Shown here: piece after piece, positions 47,682 through 59,719 of the stretch | Position numbering within the stretch: the first letter of the stretch is position 1 | Layout of the letters: every line of letters begins with the position of its first letter | Assembly: GCA_001899285.1 (NCBI GenBank) | Contig: MKWA01000004.1 | Coordinates: 1-64,000 of the forward strand | Origin: Rhizobiales bacterium 64-17 | GTDB lineage: Bacteria; Pseudomonadota; Alphaproteobacteria; Rhizobiales; Xanthobacteraceae | Direction of reading: 5' to 3' | DNA length: 64,000 bases | The notes under the pieces: generated by a model | The model's input: only the letters and a program-made list of their open reading frames with translations | Database searches by the model: none | Told to the model about the DNA's origin: nothing | Made by a program: the position numbers and the translations under genes

Positions 47682-47731
47682 TGGCGCGCCGGAAGGGATT
47701 CGAACCCCTGACCCCCAGATTCGAAGTCTGA
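47682..47731 (-). pseudogene. 3' fragment of tRNA-Arg(UCG): integration (att) site
   Basis: On the minus strand the sequence keeps the anticodon arm TCAGA-CTTCGAA-TCTGG, the T arm AGGGG-TTCGAAT-CCCTT, acceptor strand CCGGCGC, discriminator G and encoded CCA. The 5' acceptor strand and D arm are missing; the sequence becomes unrelated upstream. This is the footprint left when an integrase recombines into a tRNA 3' half. The integrase gene lies 150 bases away. The reconstituted tRNA should lie at the other end of the element, outside the window. Confidence 0.72.
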
Positions 47732-47880
47732 TTTGTAGCGCCGACACGATTACGCAGCAGTCGCCAGAAGCCGCAAAACATCAATAAACATAACGCTTTT
47801 TCACGTCAGGAATGTATTCTCGCCGACACTGTTTCGCGCTATTGTGGTAGCTAATTGGTAGCTAAAAATCGGCGTGAGAC

Positions 47881-49104
47881 ATGGCCTCCAAAGGCATCAC
47901 AATCAAAGCAGTCCAAGCTCTCGAGACCGGCGAAACGATATGGGACGCGGGTCACAACGAGGCCGTAAAAGGCTTTGGCGTCCGACGACAGAAGGGTAAT
48001 CCTGTCTACGTCATCAAGTATCGCGTTTTCGGACGGCAGCGATTTGTCACCATCGGTCGCCATGGCGCGCCTTGGACACCTGAAACCGCACGCCGCGAGG
48101 CTAAGCGTCTATTCGGCCTCGTCGCGACTGGCAAAGACCCGCAGATCGAGAAAGCCACGGCGAAGGAGAATGGGACCTTTACGCTCCGCACTATCGGGGA
48201 CCAATACCTGCGGTATGCGGAGAAGAAGCAAAAGCCGCGCAGCTTTGCCGAAACCAAGCGCCACCTGAACAAGAACTGGAGGCCGCTCCACACGACCTCG
48301 ATTTTCGACATTCAACGACGCCATGTCGCGGTGAGGCTCGGGCAGATTGAGAAGGAGCGTGGACAGGTCGCCGCAGCCCGCTCCCGTGCCGCCTTATCTG
48401 CTCTCTTTAATTGGGCGATCCGCGAGGGATTTGATCTGCCGGCAAACCCTGTTACCGGCACCAACAAGCCTTTAGAACCGAAATCGCGCCAACGGGTGCT
48501 GTCGGACAGCGACCTTAAAGAAATCTTCGCCGCTGCCGGCGACGACGACTATGGCAAGATCGTCAAACTGTTGGCTCTTACGGGCCAGCGCCGCGACGAG
48601 GTCGGCGGAATATGCTGGTCAGAGATCGATGAGGACAGGAAGCTTTGGACCATCCCAGCCTCCCGAACCAAAAACCGACGGGAACACATGGTGCCCCTGT
48701 CCGACGAAGCCCTGGCCATAATCACAACCACGCCGCGCCAAACAGATCGGGACTTCCTGTTCGGGAGTGGGCCACGCAAAGCTGACGGCGAACAGCGCGG
48801 GTTTTCTGGCTGGTCAAAGGCCAAAGCCGAACTCGACCAGAAAATCCTCGAAGCCCGCCGTAAAGCTGATCCGGAAGCTAAGGCCTTCCCTTGGATTCTT
48901 CACGATCTACGCCGGACCTGTGCTACCGTTCTCGCCGACCGCTTTCGGACCCAGCCTTATATTGTAGAGGCCATTTTAAACCACATAAGCGGCCACAAAG
49001 CCGGGGTCGCGGGAGTCTATAATCGCGCAAAATATCTCGTCGAAATTCAGAAAGCCTTAGAAGCCTGGGGTCAATTCATCCGGACACTCTTGAAAGACGG
49101 ATGA
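47881..49104 (+). CDS. Tyrosine-type integrase (P4 family)
   Basis: This 407-aa recombinase has an N-terminal DUF4102-like arm-binding domain (GFGVRRQKGNPVYVIKYRVFGRQRFVTIG), a central core-binding domain and a catalytic domain. The visible catalytic residues are Arg in LLALTGQRRDEVGGI, H-x-x-R in LHDLRRTCATVLAD, and Tyr near VYNRAKY. It directly follows the tRNA-Arg fragment, so it is the enzyme that integrates the element there. Confidence 0.93.
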   Translation: MASKGITIKAVQALETGETIWDAGHNEAVKGFGVRRQKGNPVYVIKYRVFGRQRFVTIGRHGAPWTPETARREAKRLFGLVATGKDPQIEKATAKENGTFTLRTIGDQYLRYAEKKQKPRSFAETKRHLNKNWRPLHTTSIFDIQRRHVAVRLGQIEKERGQVAAARSRAALSALFNWAIREGFDLPANPVTGTNKPLEPKSRQRVLSDSDLKEIFAAAGDDDYGKIVKLLALTGQRRDEVGGICWSEIDEDRKLWTIPASRTKNRREHMVPLSDEALAIITTTPRQTDRDFLFGSGPRKADGEQRGFSGWSKAKAELDQKILEARRKADPEAKAFPWILHDLRRTCATVLADRFRTQPYIVEAILNHISGHKAGVAGVYNRAKYLVEIQKALEAWGQFIRTLLKDG

Positions 49105-49179: not shown

Positions 49180-50229
49180 ATGCCCGACGAGACAATCACA
49201 AATAATCAGCACTGGCTGGCTCTTAGTTCAGCATTCTCCTCACTGCGACGCGATGATCAAGCTGATCCCCTTGGCGCAGAGATGCGGCTCAAAGCAGTCA
49301 TCCGCACAGGCCAAGTTGTGTTGAGATGGGTTGACGGGAAATCCGCAGAGGATCGTCCTATTCATACTCATCTCGTTCGAACGAAATTGCGATTCCAGCA
49401 GACTGGACTCGCCTTTAGCGGACAAGAAGCTGATTGGGACACAGACTTGGCAAGATACAGACCACTCTACTTGCTGAAATCGAGCTTTGAAGAAGTTGCA
49501 CGCGCCCTTCCGAACATACCGTTTAATGATGATGGCACACGCAGCTCGCGAATGACCCTAGTCGAAGCAGTGGAGTGGGTTCGTCAAACTACAAATTGTA
49601 CGGAAGAAGCCGCGATAATATCCCTGAAGAACGAAATCCACTCAGGCAATATCAGCCTTGTTGGGTTTGGCGCAGAACCTCCAATACACCGCTCGCCGAT
49701 TATCAAACAGCACGGCAGGCTAACCTTTCAGAGAACGCGCTCATACCATCCGATTCAGCCATCAACCCTTAAGAAACTCGATATCTCTTTGTACGGCCCT
49801 GGCTTTTTGGTCCCAGCCGGGCGGCGCAGCACTCATGAAAACATCGCGGCCTCATCGTTCTCGCAATCGGCGGATAATGATGATGACGCCCTGGATGTCG
49901 AGGAGCGGACCGACTATCAAACCTTAGCATTTGTGAGCACCAAGGAAGTCGCCCAGATTTGGCCGCATAGCGTCGCAGTCAAGTTGACCAAGCCCATAGA
50001 ACCTATGCGTCGGAGGCGCGCAGGCCGACCGGGCGTCAGAGATGAAATCTTTCGCGCTTTAGATGAAATTTCCAGAAAAATAGAAGTAGCGAACCTCGAC
50101 AATAAAAGGCTCGAGGTTTTGGTTCTCGAACACCTGGGCAAATCATCAAATTCGAGGAATTACAGTAGTCGTACTATCGCGAAGTATATCGGTGAATGGC
50201 GAGAAACCCACAAAGTCGGCACTAAATAA
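49180..50229 (+). CDS. Island protein of unknown function with C-terminal helix-turn-helix-like region
   Basis: A 349-aa soluble protein that I do not recognise. The last 75 residues contain a basic segment (RRRRAGRPGVRDEIFRALDEI) and SSRTIAKYIGEWRETHK, which looks like a DNA-binding helical region. It lies between the integrase and the excisionase-like gene, where regulators or accessory replication factors are often found. Base composition is lower in GC than in the core genes. Confidence 0.65.
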   Translation: MPDETITNNQHWLALSSAFSSLRRDDQADPLGAEMRLKAVIRTGQVVLRWVDGKSAEDRPIHTHLVRTKLRFQQTGLAFSGQEADWDTDLARYRPLYLLKSSFEEVARALPNIPFNDDGTRSSRMTLVEAVEWVRQTTNCTEEAAIISLKNEIHSGNISLVGFGAEPPIHRSPIIKQHGRLTFQRTRSYHPIQPSTLKKLDISLYGPGFLVPAGRRSTHENIAASSFSQSADNDDDALDVEERTDYQTLAFVSTKEVAQIWPHSVAVKLTKPIEPMRRRRAGRPGVRDEIFRALDEISRKIEVANLDNKRLEVLVLEHLGKSSNSRNYSSRTIAKYIGEWRETHKVGTK

Positions 50230-50316
50230 TATTGCGTATTTAGGGAGCATTTCGCGGATTTAGCCAGCTGGCGATAGTAGGCCCTGCAGAATATGTCGTG
50301 TCAAAAGGACACGACG

Positions 50317-50520
50317 ATGAACGAACCGCTGCTTGACCAGACCGAAGTCGCCAAGAAGCTCGGCATTTCGCCCCGAACCTTGGAGCGAATGCGGCTGATG
50401 GGCACCGGCCCGGCGTTCATCAAAATCGGCCGCTTAGTGCGTTATCGCGCCTGCGATCTAGAACGCTTCATCGCAGCTGCCACAGTCACCTCGACCTCAG
50501 AGCGCCCCGGTGCCCGCTGA
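50317..50520 (+). CDS. AlpA/excisionase-like helix-turn-helix protein
   Basis: A 67-aa protein with a MerR-like winged helix: LLDQTEVAKKLGISPRTLERMRLMGTGPAFIKIGRLVRYRACDLERFIA. Such proteins act as excisionases or activators in integrative elements. AAGGA lies ten bases before the ATG at 50317, which is preferred over the ORF start at 50293. The stop overlaps the beginning of the Rep-like gene. Confidence 0.85.
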   Translation: MNEPLLDQTEVAKKLGISPRTLERMRLMGTGPAFIKIGRLVRYRACDLERFIAAATVTSTSERPGAR

Positions 50521-51352
50521 TCATAGCGCCGGTATTCGCACGCTTCTGCACGACGAAATTCTGTTCGGCGACGGCGAGCCAGACCTTGGACCTGTCATGA
50601 CCAGCGCGAAGGTAGCTCTTCGTTCTAGGGCCGTGGTCGATGTGCTGGAGAAAGCCGCCACGAAGGCAAAAAGCAGCGGCGATCACAGACGAGGCCGACA
50701 GCTTGCAAATCTAGCGGACGACCTCCGACACTGCCGGCCCCGGAGCCGTTGTGTCTCTCTCGCCTGTCCGCAATGCCTGCGAGCCCTGCAACGTGCCAAG
50801 ACGGAGGTGTTCACCCAGGCAGCGCAAGCTCGCACAGCAACACGTTCGAAGGCCAGGCCGGTATTCGTCACCATTGCCCCACCTCAATGGGTTTTTGAGC
50901 CCAGCGACCTTAACAAAATCTCCCTCGGCAAGGTCGTTCGTTGGCTCAAGGACACTCTTCGCCGCGAAGGGGTAGACCGCCCTATGCTCGGCAGTCTCGA
51001 CATTGACGTCAACAACGAGGGACGTATTCGAATCCATCTGCATGCGGTGATGTGGACGAAGAACTCGGCGCGTTTGACAGCTCGTCTAAAGAAGGCGCTC
51101 TCCACTTCACCTGACCTGAAATACGCGCGATCGGTTCAGGTCAACGGTACACGTGATCTTGGTTTCATCGCGTACAGCCTCAAGCTCGTGAAATTCCAAG
51201 AACTCCTGCGCCACAACCGCAAGATCTTGCCGGATCTTCTGCTCTTTCTGGACCGTACAAAAGCCAGCGACATCCTCGTCCTTTTCGGCTTCCACGCAAG
51301 TGCGCAGCGATCAGGCTTCATCGTCAGGCCTCTGATGAAAGCGTCTGGCTAG
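50510..51352 (+). CDS. Candidate HUH-endonuclease replication initiator (Rep-like)
   Basis: This 280-aa protein has a four-cysteine zinc knuckle (C75-x5-C81-x4-C86-x2-C89, CVSLACPQC). A strand resembling GSLDIDVNN is followed by IHLHAVMW, where H176-L-H178 matches the HUH metal motif. FIAYSLKL gives Y222-x-x-K225, matching the YxxK nicking motif of single-tyrosine rolling-circle Reps. The order zinc knuckle, HUH, YxxK is as in Rep_1-like proteins, though overall similarity is weak. It overlaps the excisionase gene and precedes a DUF927 ATPase. Confidence 0.6.
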   Translation: MPADHSAGIRTLLHDEILFGDGEPDLGPVMTSAKVALRSRAVVDVLEKAATKAKSSGDHRRGRQLANLADDLRHCRPRSRCVSLACPQCLRALQRAKTEVFTQAAQARTATRSKARPVFVTIAPPQWVFEPSDLNKISLGKVVRWLKDTLRREGVDRPMLGSLDIDVNNEGRIRIHLHAVMWTKNSARLTARLKKALSTSPDLKYARSVQVNGTRDLGFIAYSLKLVKFQELLRHNRKILPDLLLFLDRTKASDILVLFGFHASAQRSGFIVRPLMKASG

Positions 51353-51547: not shown

Positions 51548-53290
51548 ATGAAAAAAGATTCCCTTGATCCTACGATCCGGAAGATCAGCAACGACAGCGT
51601 TACACGTGAAATCACAGAGAACGAAAAGCCATCAATTCAGATAATCGCGCTTGGTATGCACCTGAAGACCGGGAAACACCTCATCAAAATTTCGTTCGAC
51701 GACATCCATAACGAAAGAAAAATCCATATCTTCAAACGCAAGATGCTCGCCGCTAGCATGAAGGCATCCCTCATTCGTGAATTGGTCGGCCTCGGCTGTC
51801 CTTGGCCATCAGAAGGCCATCGCAGCGACGCGCTGTGGCGCACCCTTGATAAAGCGAGGCCGGATTCGAGATTTTTGGTCCTGACAGCGCCGGGCTGGCA
51901 TAAGGAATACTTCGTCACGAGAAACCGACTCTACGGCCAAAGCGAAGTAAGCGAAGTGCTCATCGACGAAAACTCCCCCGAGCACGTGAGCGGGTTCACC
52001 ACAGCTGGCACTCTGGAGGGCTGGCAGCACGCGGTCAAAAATTACCCCAACCTTTCGTCACCACTATGCGTTGCGATGTCGGCAGCGTTTGCTGCCCCAC
52101 TACTGCGCCCGCTTGGATTCGATTCCTTCGCAATCAACTGGTTCGGAAAAACATCTGGCGGCAAGAGCACTATCATTCGGGCTGCGGCGGCAGTCGGTGG
52201 GTTATTCGAAGAGGATGGCTATAATTTGCCAACCTGGGGCGATACCGATGCGGCATTCGAAGCGCAGGCGATGGGGCATCGCGATTGCCTCTTCCCCATC
52301 GACGAAACCGGGGACGCGGAGCGCAATGATGTACCGCTGCACATTCGCGCGAAGCGTTGGGCATTCACGCTTTCTCGAAACCGGCCAAGAAAAACTGACG
52401 TGAGCTATGCGAGGGCGAAGGGGCACTTCGGCCGCGAATTTCGCGTGATCGGGATGAGCTCAAGCGAAACGGCGATGGGCGACGCCGCTGCCCGTGCCGG
52501 ACGCCGCAGGCTCGGCGGGGAGGAGGTCAGGCTCATCGACATCCCGGCTGAACAACCGGGCTCCATGGGGGTATTCGACGGCGACCTCAGCGACTACCCC
52601 GGGGTCGACGGTGCTCGGCAGCTAGCTGACGCGATCAAGGCCGATGTACGCCACTATCAGGGCGCCGCTTTCGATGCATATCTTCAAGCACTCTTTGCCC
52701 ACGATAACTGGCTCGCCCGCGCAAAGAAAGAGATCCGGCGATTTGAAAGGCGGTTCGGCGGCCCCACCGACACGCGGATCACTGGCCGGATCAAAAGCAA
52801 CTTTGCTGTCCTCTGGACAGGCGCGGCCCTAGCAATCCGATACGGCGTGTTGCCATGGTCGAGAAAGGAGACAGTGGCGGCTATAGGTGCCATTTATGAG
52901 CGCGCCATCAGGGCCCTTCCCGACAATGCCGCCAAGCCCATCCAGCTTGACGGATACGATCCGAAAGCCATGCTTAAAAAGCTTTCAGATGAGCTCGCCC
53001 GCGCAAGGTTGCTGCGGCTGAAAAGGAAGGGGGCGGTATCAGATAAAAAAGCGGTAGCCCGGCAAGCCGCCGATGGATTCTATATTGATGGGCATCTTTT
53101 TGTGAAGAACAATTGGTTCGTCGGTCTCTTCAATAAGGCCGAGCGAACGACCTTGAAGAAGGCTGGCGCGTTCGTCTCTCAGCGCGATGACACGCCCACC
53201 GTGTGCAAGAAGATCTACGGGATCGAGGGACGCCCGCGGTACTACCCCATAAATGAGCAGGTAGTGCAGGTGTCGCGAAGGGGCGAATAA
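51548..53290 (+). CDS. DUF927-domain ATPase/helicase-like protein
   Basis: A 580-aa protein with the DUF927 core: FLVLTAPGWH, CVAMSAAFAAPLLRPLGFDSFAINWFGKTSGGKST (the last part is Walker A), and an acidic Walker-B-like motif LFPIDETGD. DUF927 proteins are superfamily 3-like helicase/primase-associated ATPases found in phages and integrative elements. The C-terminal region (FYIDGHLFVKNNWFVGLFNKAE) may form a wing domain. It is the last backbone gene, and a hairpin follows the stop. Confidence 0.85.
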   Translation: MKKDSLDPTIRKISNDSVTREITENEKPSIQIIALGMHLKTGKHLIKISFDDIHNERKIHIFKRKMLAASMKASLIRELVGLGCPWPSEGHRSDALWRTLDKARPDSRFLVLTAPGWHKEYFVTRNRLYGQSEVSEVLIDENSPEHVSGFTTAGTLEGWQHAVKNYPNLSSPLCVAMSAAFAAPLLRPLGFDSFAINWFGKTSGGKSTIIRAAAAVGGLFEEDGYNLPTWGDTDAAFEAQAMGHRDCLFPIDETGDAERNDVPLHIRAKRWAFTLSRNRPRKTDVSYARAKGHFGREFRVIGMSSSETAMGDAAARAGRRRLGGEEVRLIDIPAEQPGSMGVFDGDLSDYPGVDGARQLADAIKADVRHYQGAAFDAYLQALFAHDNWLARAKKEIRRFERRFGGPTDTRITGRIKSNFAVLWTGAALAIRYGVLPWSRKETVAAIGAIYERAIRALPDNAAKPIQLDGYDPKAMLKKLSDELARARLLRLKRKGAVSDKKAVARQAADGFYIDGHLFVKNNWFVGLFNKAERTTLKKAGAFVSQRDDTPTVCKKIYGIEGRPRYYPINEQVVQVSRRGE

Positions 53291-53322: not shown

Positions 53323-53349
53323 ACGGGGCCGCACAATCTGCGGCCCCGT
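53323..53349. terminator. Hairpin after the DUF927 gene
   Basis: Eleven-base perfect arms (acggggccgca/tgcggccccgt) with a 5-nt loop lie 33 bases after the stop. There is no T run, so termination efficiency is uncertain. Confidence 0.65.
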
Positions 53350-53576
53350 AAACTCATGGGCTTTGTAGCAAAATAAACTGACTATGCGGCTCGGAAAGGA
53401 TCGAACCCCGCCCCCTCCGCGACTATTTGGGCACGAATCGCAACCTCGAAACCATAAAAATTGACCACTCCATAGGAACGCCCGACGATCCATGAGGATT
53501 TCGCCCGGTTCCGGCCTGAGAATTTCGAGGGATATGGGCAGTTTGCAAAAGCTGCCCCATTTCCTAATATGCGCTG

Positions 53577-54006: not shown

Positions 54007-55292
54007 TTGAGGTTAGCTATGAACGAACGCGCCCTCGCGGGTGCGGGCGCTCGCATCCGCTGGCAATGGGCCATCGCGGTGCTGGCGTTCGCAGCCAGCA
54101 TCACCGCGTCGCAGGCGGAACCAAGAGTGCTCGGTCTGAACGAAGCCTTACAACTTGCTCTGCGCAGCGATGCGATAGTGCCTGCGATCCGGTCGCGGGT
54201 CCGCGGCGCTGAAGCCGGAATCCGCCAAGCGGACAGGCTACCCAACCCGACGATAGGTGCGGAGTTCGAGAATTTCGCCGGCTCTGGCAGCTATCGCGGT
54301 TCAAGCCGGATCCAAAGTACGGTGTTTCTGCAACAACTTCTGGAGCTCGGCGGCAAACGTGAGGCCCGGACAGGGGTTGCACAAGCCGAACTCAAGATTG
54401 CCCGTGCCCGCGGCGCTGTCCGGGTTCTCGATCTTCTCCGCGATGTCGAGCTGGCTTGGATCGATTTGGCTGTCGCTATAGCTCAGCAACGGATCGCCGA
54501 AGAGCGGCTATCCATCGCTCAACGGCTTCGCGATGAATTTGTTCGACGCTCTCAAAGCGGTCGCGATCCACTTTTCACACAATCGCGCGCCGAAGCACAG
54601 GTCGCGTTAGAAGAAATCGCCGTCGAGCAGGCTGCATCTGCGGCTCAGATCGCACGAGCTAATCTCGCATCATATTGGCGCGGGAATACCGACTTTACTA
54701 TCGACATCTCGCTTCTCGAAGCTGAACAACAGCACCACCGGAATAACGCCTACAACGTCGAAATCGCGCTTCTGCAATCGGAAAAAGAACTGGCAGCCGC
54801 GCGAACCGTGCTGGAACGTGCGAGAGCAATACCTGACCCTTCATTACGGCTCGGCGTGCGGCGTTTTACGGAAACGGGAGATTCAGCAGCGATTGCAGGA
54901 ATCTCGATCCCCTTGCCGCTTTTCGACAATAACGATGGCAATATCGAAAAGGCCGAGGCGGATCGCAGAGCGGTCGAGCTCGAAATCGAGACAGCAACTC
55001 GGGCCATGCGACGCGAACTGTCAAGGCTTGAAGGCCGATTGCGCGCCAACGCAGCCGAAGCAAGACGTATTCAATCCGACGTCATTCCACGAGCGCAACG
55101 CGCTGTCGACCTGATTCGCGACGGGCTCGAACGCGGCGTCTTTAGCTATGTCGAGTTCGCCGATGCGCAGCGCACCTTGAATGATGCGCGCTTGCGTCGG
55201 ATCGACGCTCTCAAAAGCTTCCAACAAGACAACGCTGCCTTGGCACGGCTCACCGGCCGCCACATGCGGCTCAATATGAAAGTTCCTCCGCA

Positions 55293-55296
<4 letters not shown>
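54007..55296 (+). CDS. czcC: TolC-family outer-membrane efflux protein (CzcC-like)
   Basis: A 429-aa outer-membrane factor with a signal sequence (AIAVLAFAASITASQA). The two long coiled-coil repeats carry LGLNEALQLALRSD, RQADRLPNPTIGAEFEN, and DGLERGVFSYVEFADAQRTLNDARLRRIDALKSFQQDNAALARLTG. The CzcC-like features include the ISIPLPLFDNNDGNIEKAEAD block. It forms the exit duct of the tripartite system. The stop overlaps the czcB start by four bases. Confidence 0.9.

Positions 55297-59719
<4,423 letters not shown>

Follow-up and report, generated by a model that had tools for sequence, protein, structure and literature searches.

The question raised by this locus is whether P0001, a protein encoded inside a chromosomal integrative element, is an HUH-type replication initiator and, if so, whether the element could be copied after leaving the chromosome. 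The window analysed was the whole stretch of 64,000 nucleotides, which lies at the start of contig C4. P0001 and its motifs were located as follows.

50510..51352, + strand: predicted HUH-fold Rep-like protein P0001, 280 aa (hhalign to Rep_1 profile, AF2 model, fold matches)
50732..50776, + strand: C4 zinc-knuckle codons C75, C81, C86 and C89 (31-sequence alignment: invariant, or conserved in at least 90 %)
51035..51043, + strand: HUH motif H176-L177-H178 (in register with HMH of pUB110 Rep; lies on the model's central strand, E173-183)
51173..51184, + strand: Y222-x-x-K225 motif (Y222 invariant; aligned to Y241/K244 of pUB110 Rep; end of helix 213-222)

Reading frame, motifs and relatives of P0001

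The ORF reading of the window gave an open frame of 280 codons that begins with GTG and ends with the stop codon 51350-51352. Translation could plausibly begin near 50510, because the residues following the GTG, 'FGDGEPDLGP', resemble 'YEDGPPHW' and 'YGDDGPSW' of relatives; the first ~24-29 residues were of low confidence in the predicted structure. The cysteine, HLH and YxxK motifs noted in the sequence-only reading were all present in this frame in the order given there, C75-x5-C81-x4-C86-x2-C89 followed by H176-L177-H178 and then Y222-S-L-K225.

Sequence searches with P0001 returned no match in Pfam, NCBIfam or PHROGs and no meaningful match in the PDB. There was likewise no match to the Rep_1 (PF01446) Pfam model at E up to 10 or to the relaxase families of Pfam and NCBIfam. 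Nothing was found by tblastn in plasmid and phage records, by a single-protein scan of genome contigs or by a small-profile scan of viral contigs for the family. Whole-genome searches yielded weak relatives, and profiles built on these recovered further members, from the same class and in a few cases from other parts of the phylum, with Methylobacterium, Methylorubrum and a Phreatobacter MAG among the named records. P0001 lies on a long branch, with an identity to any relative of at most 25 %. Across 31 aligned sequences, C75, C81, C86 and Y222 were invariant, and C89 and H176 were conserved in at least 90 %. When family members were scanned singly, two of 19 weakly matched Rep_1 (best E 0.0071) and one weakly matched REP_ORF2-G2P.

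Relationship to Rep_1 initiators and predicted structure

A profile of the 31 family sequences was compared using hhalign with one built from eight Rep_1 proteins, pUB110 Rep being the lead sequence. The full-length comparison scored 96.8 % (P 2.2e-10), and the match remained at 93.2 % (P 2.8e-7) after the zinc region was removed; control profiles (integrase, DUF927, reversed and 20 column-shuffled) reached a probability of at most 0.5 %. In the alignment lacking the zinc region, HLH was set on HMH, and Y222/K225 (YSLK) on Y241/K244 (YPVK), of pUB110 Rep. P0001 and the Rep_1 proteins of pUB110 and pC194 share a collinear arrangement of Cys-rich zinc knuckle, motif I, HUH, YxxK and C-terminal region; the knuckle proposed from the sequence belongs to this homologous Rep_1 architecture. 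The profile-level check that had been proposed, made here with controls, supports Rep_1 homology, and a chance origin of the HUH and tyrosine letters was ruled out by the family conservation and the profile controls.

The placement of P0001 as a distant relative of Rep_1 initiators rather than a Rep_1 protein proper appears well supported, because it has no Pfam match and because the invariant Rep_1 glutamate four residues before the tyrosine (E237) is Gly218 in P0001. The settings also differ: Rep_1 proteins belong to small plasmids, whereas the P0001 family is found in chromosomal integrative elements, is paired with DUF927 and has often lost HUH histidines among its members.

The AlphaFold model of P0001 had a pLDDT of 79.7 with 19 sequences and of 82.7, with a pTM of 0.81, with 31 sequences. 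Strands 116-122, 159-167, 173-183 and 206-210, interleaved with helices, follow the HUH order of elements; HLH is placed in the central strand 173-183, and Y222 ends helix 213-222, where local pLDDT was about 72-74. In Foldseek searches of viral models (BFVD), a protein without a name matched at E 6.9e-6, and the best named matches, at E 5.3e-4 to 3.1e-3 (prob 1.00), were replication initiators of microviruses, with CRESS Reps also matched. The microvirus initiators resemble P0001 in predicted fold, but sequence identity is only 11-15 % and P0001 is not in a virus. Foldseek against the PDB gave nothing significant with either model, and circovirus and wheat dwarf virus Rep were in the top 10. 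Element order, fold search and profile comparison therefore agree on the HUH fold claimed from the sequence. On these predictions we regard the HUH fold of P0001 and its homology to Rep_1 as very probable.

Integration site and extent of the insertion

The features upstream of P0001, together with a tRNA-like sequence downstream, were as follows.

47682..47730, - strand: 49-bp attachment core, 3' part of tRNA-Arg(TCG) (exact match to the 3'-terminal 49 nt of the intact tRNA at G000:C22:489692-489768)
47847..47864, no strand assigned: GTAGCTAATTGGTAGCTA, possible integrase arm site, its role inferred (18 bp, repeated beyond the C22 tRNA)
47881..49104, + strand: P4-type tyrosine integrase, 407 aa (PF00589 E 1.2e-13; PF13356 Arm-DNA-bind_3 E 3.1e-11)
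49180..50229, + strand: 349-aa protein (no Pfam or NCBIfam match)
50293..50520, + strand: HTH_17 (AlpA/Xis-like) DNA-binding protein, 75 aa (PF12728 E 2e-9)
53384..53416, - strand: degenerate tRNA-Arg 3'-end-like sequence, possible old att site (att-core score 28)

The window contains just the 3' part of the tRNA gene, which is why ARAGORN reported no tRNA there. The 18-bp GTAGCTAATTGGTAGCTA has its sole C4 copy at 47847..47864 and a second copy at C22 489815, about 46 bp past the intact tRNA, and so lies close to each end of the insertion described below. The HTH_17 gene overlaps the start of the Rep gene by 11 bp and occupies the same place upstream of Rep in many relatives. DNA binding by the 349-aa protein is suggested by a basic stretch of GRP type close to its C-terminus.

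In a relative (G1083) the tRNA-Arg gene is intact and uninterrupted, giving an empty site. The 8.9 kb upstream of this tRNA matches the end of C22 and the 9.2 kb downstream matches C4 47730-38553, both at about 91 %; similarity to the empty locus stops at 47730. Because the empty site matches both flanks, the insertion at tRNA-Arg(TCG) is read as at least 76 kb, running from C22 489769 (to 490928) across an assembly gap and through C4 122924-47731, unless C4 and C22 were joined by another rearrangement. Its GC content on C4 is 0.55-0.59, against 0.645 in the flank.

The degenerate tRNA-like sequence at 53384-53416 is the best C4 match to the attachment core besides the core itself (score 28 versus 24 for the next), which weakly suggests that the integrase-Rep-DUF927 unit may be an element of ~5.7 kb arranged in tandem with further material. 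That a simple 5.7-kb element accounts for everything inserted was rejected on the basis of the G1083 empty locus, and a larger or tandem insertion is preferred. The P4-integrase island of the sequence-only reading is thus borne out by the integrase, the attachment core and the empty site, but the 47.7-53.4 kb unit sits inside a much larger insertion.

Read from its ORFs, the insertion apparently carries metal-efflux-like and catabolic genes. A heavy-metal efflux-like operon recognized by eye (outer membrane factor, membrane fusion protein and RND pump) occupies 54007-59719, immediately outside the possible right boundary of the small element. A perfect 11-bp inverted repeat, ACGGGGCCGCA/TGCGGCCCCGT, at 53323-53349 just past the DUF927 gene is probably a terminator.

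The DUF927 partner and its conservation

Downstream of P0001 lies the only DUF927 gene of its genome.

51548..53290, + strand: DUF927 ATPase, predicted replicative helicase, 580 aa (PF06048 E 5.2e-35)

Its Walker A (GKTSGGKST) and Walker B (LFPIDE) motifs are both intact, and the protein matched PDB 8tch, 'Pathogenicity island protein', at E 5.3e-6. Across 40 loci of the P0001 family, DUF927 was found 3' of Rep on the same strand, or fused to it, in 26 (one fused, L049) and adjacent on the opposite strand in two more; some relatives' loci had no adjoining DUF927. HTH_17 genes, AlpA-like, were often 5' of Rep, and many of the loci are flanked by integrase genes, often of the P4 type, and by genes for tRNA or tmRNA. 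Short repeats of the 3' end of the RNA gene suggested element sizes of about 5.6-9 kb in L085, L097 and L101. The pairing with DUF927 seen in the window is therefore a real, conserved module. It had been called uncommon, a description that fails within the family and stands only relative to the literature, in which our search returned no pairing of DUF927 with an HUH protein of the P0001 kind; co-mention with HUH concerned primases only, and there was none with Rep_1.

Coupling of an HUH domain to a helicase, as in the P0001 module, is also seen in CRESS-virus Rep and Helitron RepHel, where the helicase is of SF3 or SF1 rather than DUF927; fusion occurs in this family in L049. Published work identifies the SCCmec DUF927 protein as a genuine helicase and a relative of the SaPIbov1 Rep helicase (PMC5862659, PMC7581432). 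SCCmec Cch and SaPIbov1 Rep resemble the present case in being DUF927 AAA+ helicases of integrated islands, but the described SCC operons pair the helicase with an ssDNA-binding protein or a polymerase-primase pair (PMC7581432), whereas the P0001 locus pairs it with an HUH protein.

Several individual loci are of note. The natural Rep-DUF927 fusion at L049:6954-9824 (956 aa) has intact HLH and YxxK motifs and a degenerate Walker A (SGGAASERK). L101:4000-9996 and L100 carry an element integrated at tmRNA (tag ANDENYALAA) that encodes an integrase, an HTH protein and a Rep of the HYH type but lacks DUF927; in L101, a 14-bp exact repeat of the tmRNA 3' end delimits a 5.6-kb unit, in which an apparent EAL-domain protein and AraC-type regulator were also recognized by eye. 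In L096:8028-9001, from the same genus, the integrase and DUF927 genes of an element are intact but its Rep gene is broken in several frames.

Proposed mode of replication

The reading that we favour, and judge fairly probable, is that P0001 is an HUH-fold initiator, distantly akin to Rep_1, that replicates the excised integrative element together with the DUF927 AAA+ helicase. The P4-type integrase would excise the element as a circle, and the zinc knuckle and HUH domain of P0001 would recognize an origin. With a divalent metal bound by H176 and H178, Y222 would nick one strand and remain attached to its 5' end, after which the DUF927 ring would unwind the DNA for copying of the rolling-circle type. 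Excision, nicking, helicase loading, the rolling-circle mode and the location of the origin are all steps that we infer. In favour of this reading are the profile homology to Rep_1, the predicted fold with its viral matches, the conserved company of DUF927 and its intact Walker motifs, the helicase identity of the SCCmec counterpart, and the integrase with its tRNA-Arg core and empty site. Weighing against it are the 17 of 39 relatives without a canonical histidine pair, Gly218, the long branch of P0001, the lack of a significant PDB match and the negative origin search. The element is probably able to copy itself after leaving the chromosome, because the active-site residues are intact and a replicative-helicase gene adjoins.

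ICEBs1 and Tn916 are likewise integrative elements copied by nicking after excision, but they use Rep_trans (MOBT) relaxases (PMC5714925), whereas P0001 is HUH Rep_1-like. If the favoured reading is true, an HUH initiator with a DUF927 helicase is an added replication module for integrative elements, and one whose protein family escapes the Pfam, NCBIfam and PHROGs models.

A search for repeats, hairpins and a pC194-type nick site found no origin-like hairpin or iteron set and no clear nick site. The pC194/pUB110-type nick site is TCTTGATA; the window had no exact copy of it, and the 26 one-mismatch matches against 19 expected were not clearly above chance.

Loss of metal-binding histidines and alternative roles

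The histidine states of 39 family members were HUH in 21, HUQ in one, first histidine only in 12 and first histidine lost in five. The canonical pair was thus missing in 17 of the 39 (HUQ not counted), with DUF927 kept in many; the replacements of the second histidine in the 12 were Y, W, N, G or M (HxY, HxW, HxN and others). The catalytic-type tyrosine was retained in 37. On a tree built without the HUH motif columns, the HUH state required eight changes, of which at least five were forced by starred, well-supported branches; many branches were long. Loss of the second metal histidine has thus occurred repeatedly, with retention of the tyrosine and of DUF927, and this is the new and most unexpected result of the analysis. 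Nicking is apparently not obligatory for the family, because many relatives have lost a metal-binding histidine.

This pattern bears on the main rival to a nicking initiator, namely that P0001 is an origin binder no longer dependent on nicking, which finds the origin through its HUH fold and brings in the DUF927 helicase so that theta-type replication can begin. It would then resemble SV40 T antigen and papillomavirus E1, whose origin-binding domains are HUH-like. Replacement or loss of either histidine over at least five forced changes, with DUF927 persisting, is in its favour, as is the prediction that DUF927/Cch-type helicases are self-loading initiators (PMC7581432). However, in P0001 the two histidines, the tyrosine and the lysine are all present, and a tyrosine in 37 of 39 relatives is hard to explain if nicking was lost. 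We consider this role rather unlikely for P0001.

For the family as a whole, we tentatively suggest a natural series in which an HUH nickase was repeatedly turned into a non-canonical initiator working with the same DUF927 helicase. Such a series would reflect either switches between rolling-circle and nick-independent (T-antigen/E1-like) initiation or nicking with one metal histidine and the tyrosine. Repeated histidine loss with the tyrosine kept offers a direct test of how HUH nickases may become origin binders that load a helicase, a transition that has been proposed for the initiators of eukaryotic viruses.

It is improbable that P0001 is instead a mobilization nickase cutting an oriT, with the excised element transferred by a helper conjugation system. 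An HUH fold in an integrative element would suit that role, and dual Rep/Mob use of Rep_1 proteins is documented, those of pC194 and pUB110 being able to serve as relaxases with ICEBs1 (PMC5714925). Against it, the constant partner is a replication-type helicase rather than a coupling protein or accessory Mob gene, and P0001 has no relaxase family match. The overlap with the AlpA-like HTH gene and the relatives lacking an adjoining DUF927 might point to a regulatory DNA-binding protein whose fold derives from HUH and which takes no part in replication, but this is very improbable given that P0001 keeps every catalytic motif residue and that the linkage to DUF927 is strong.
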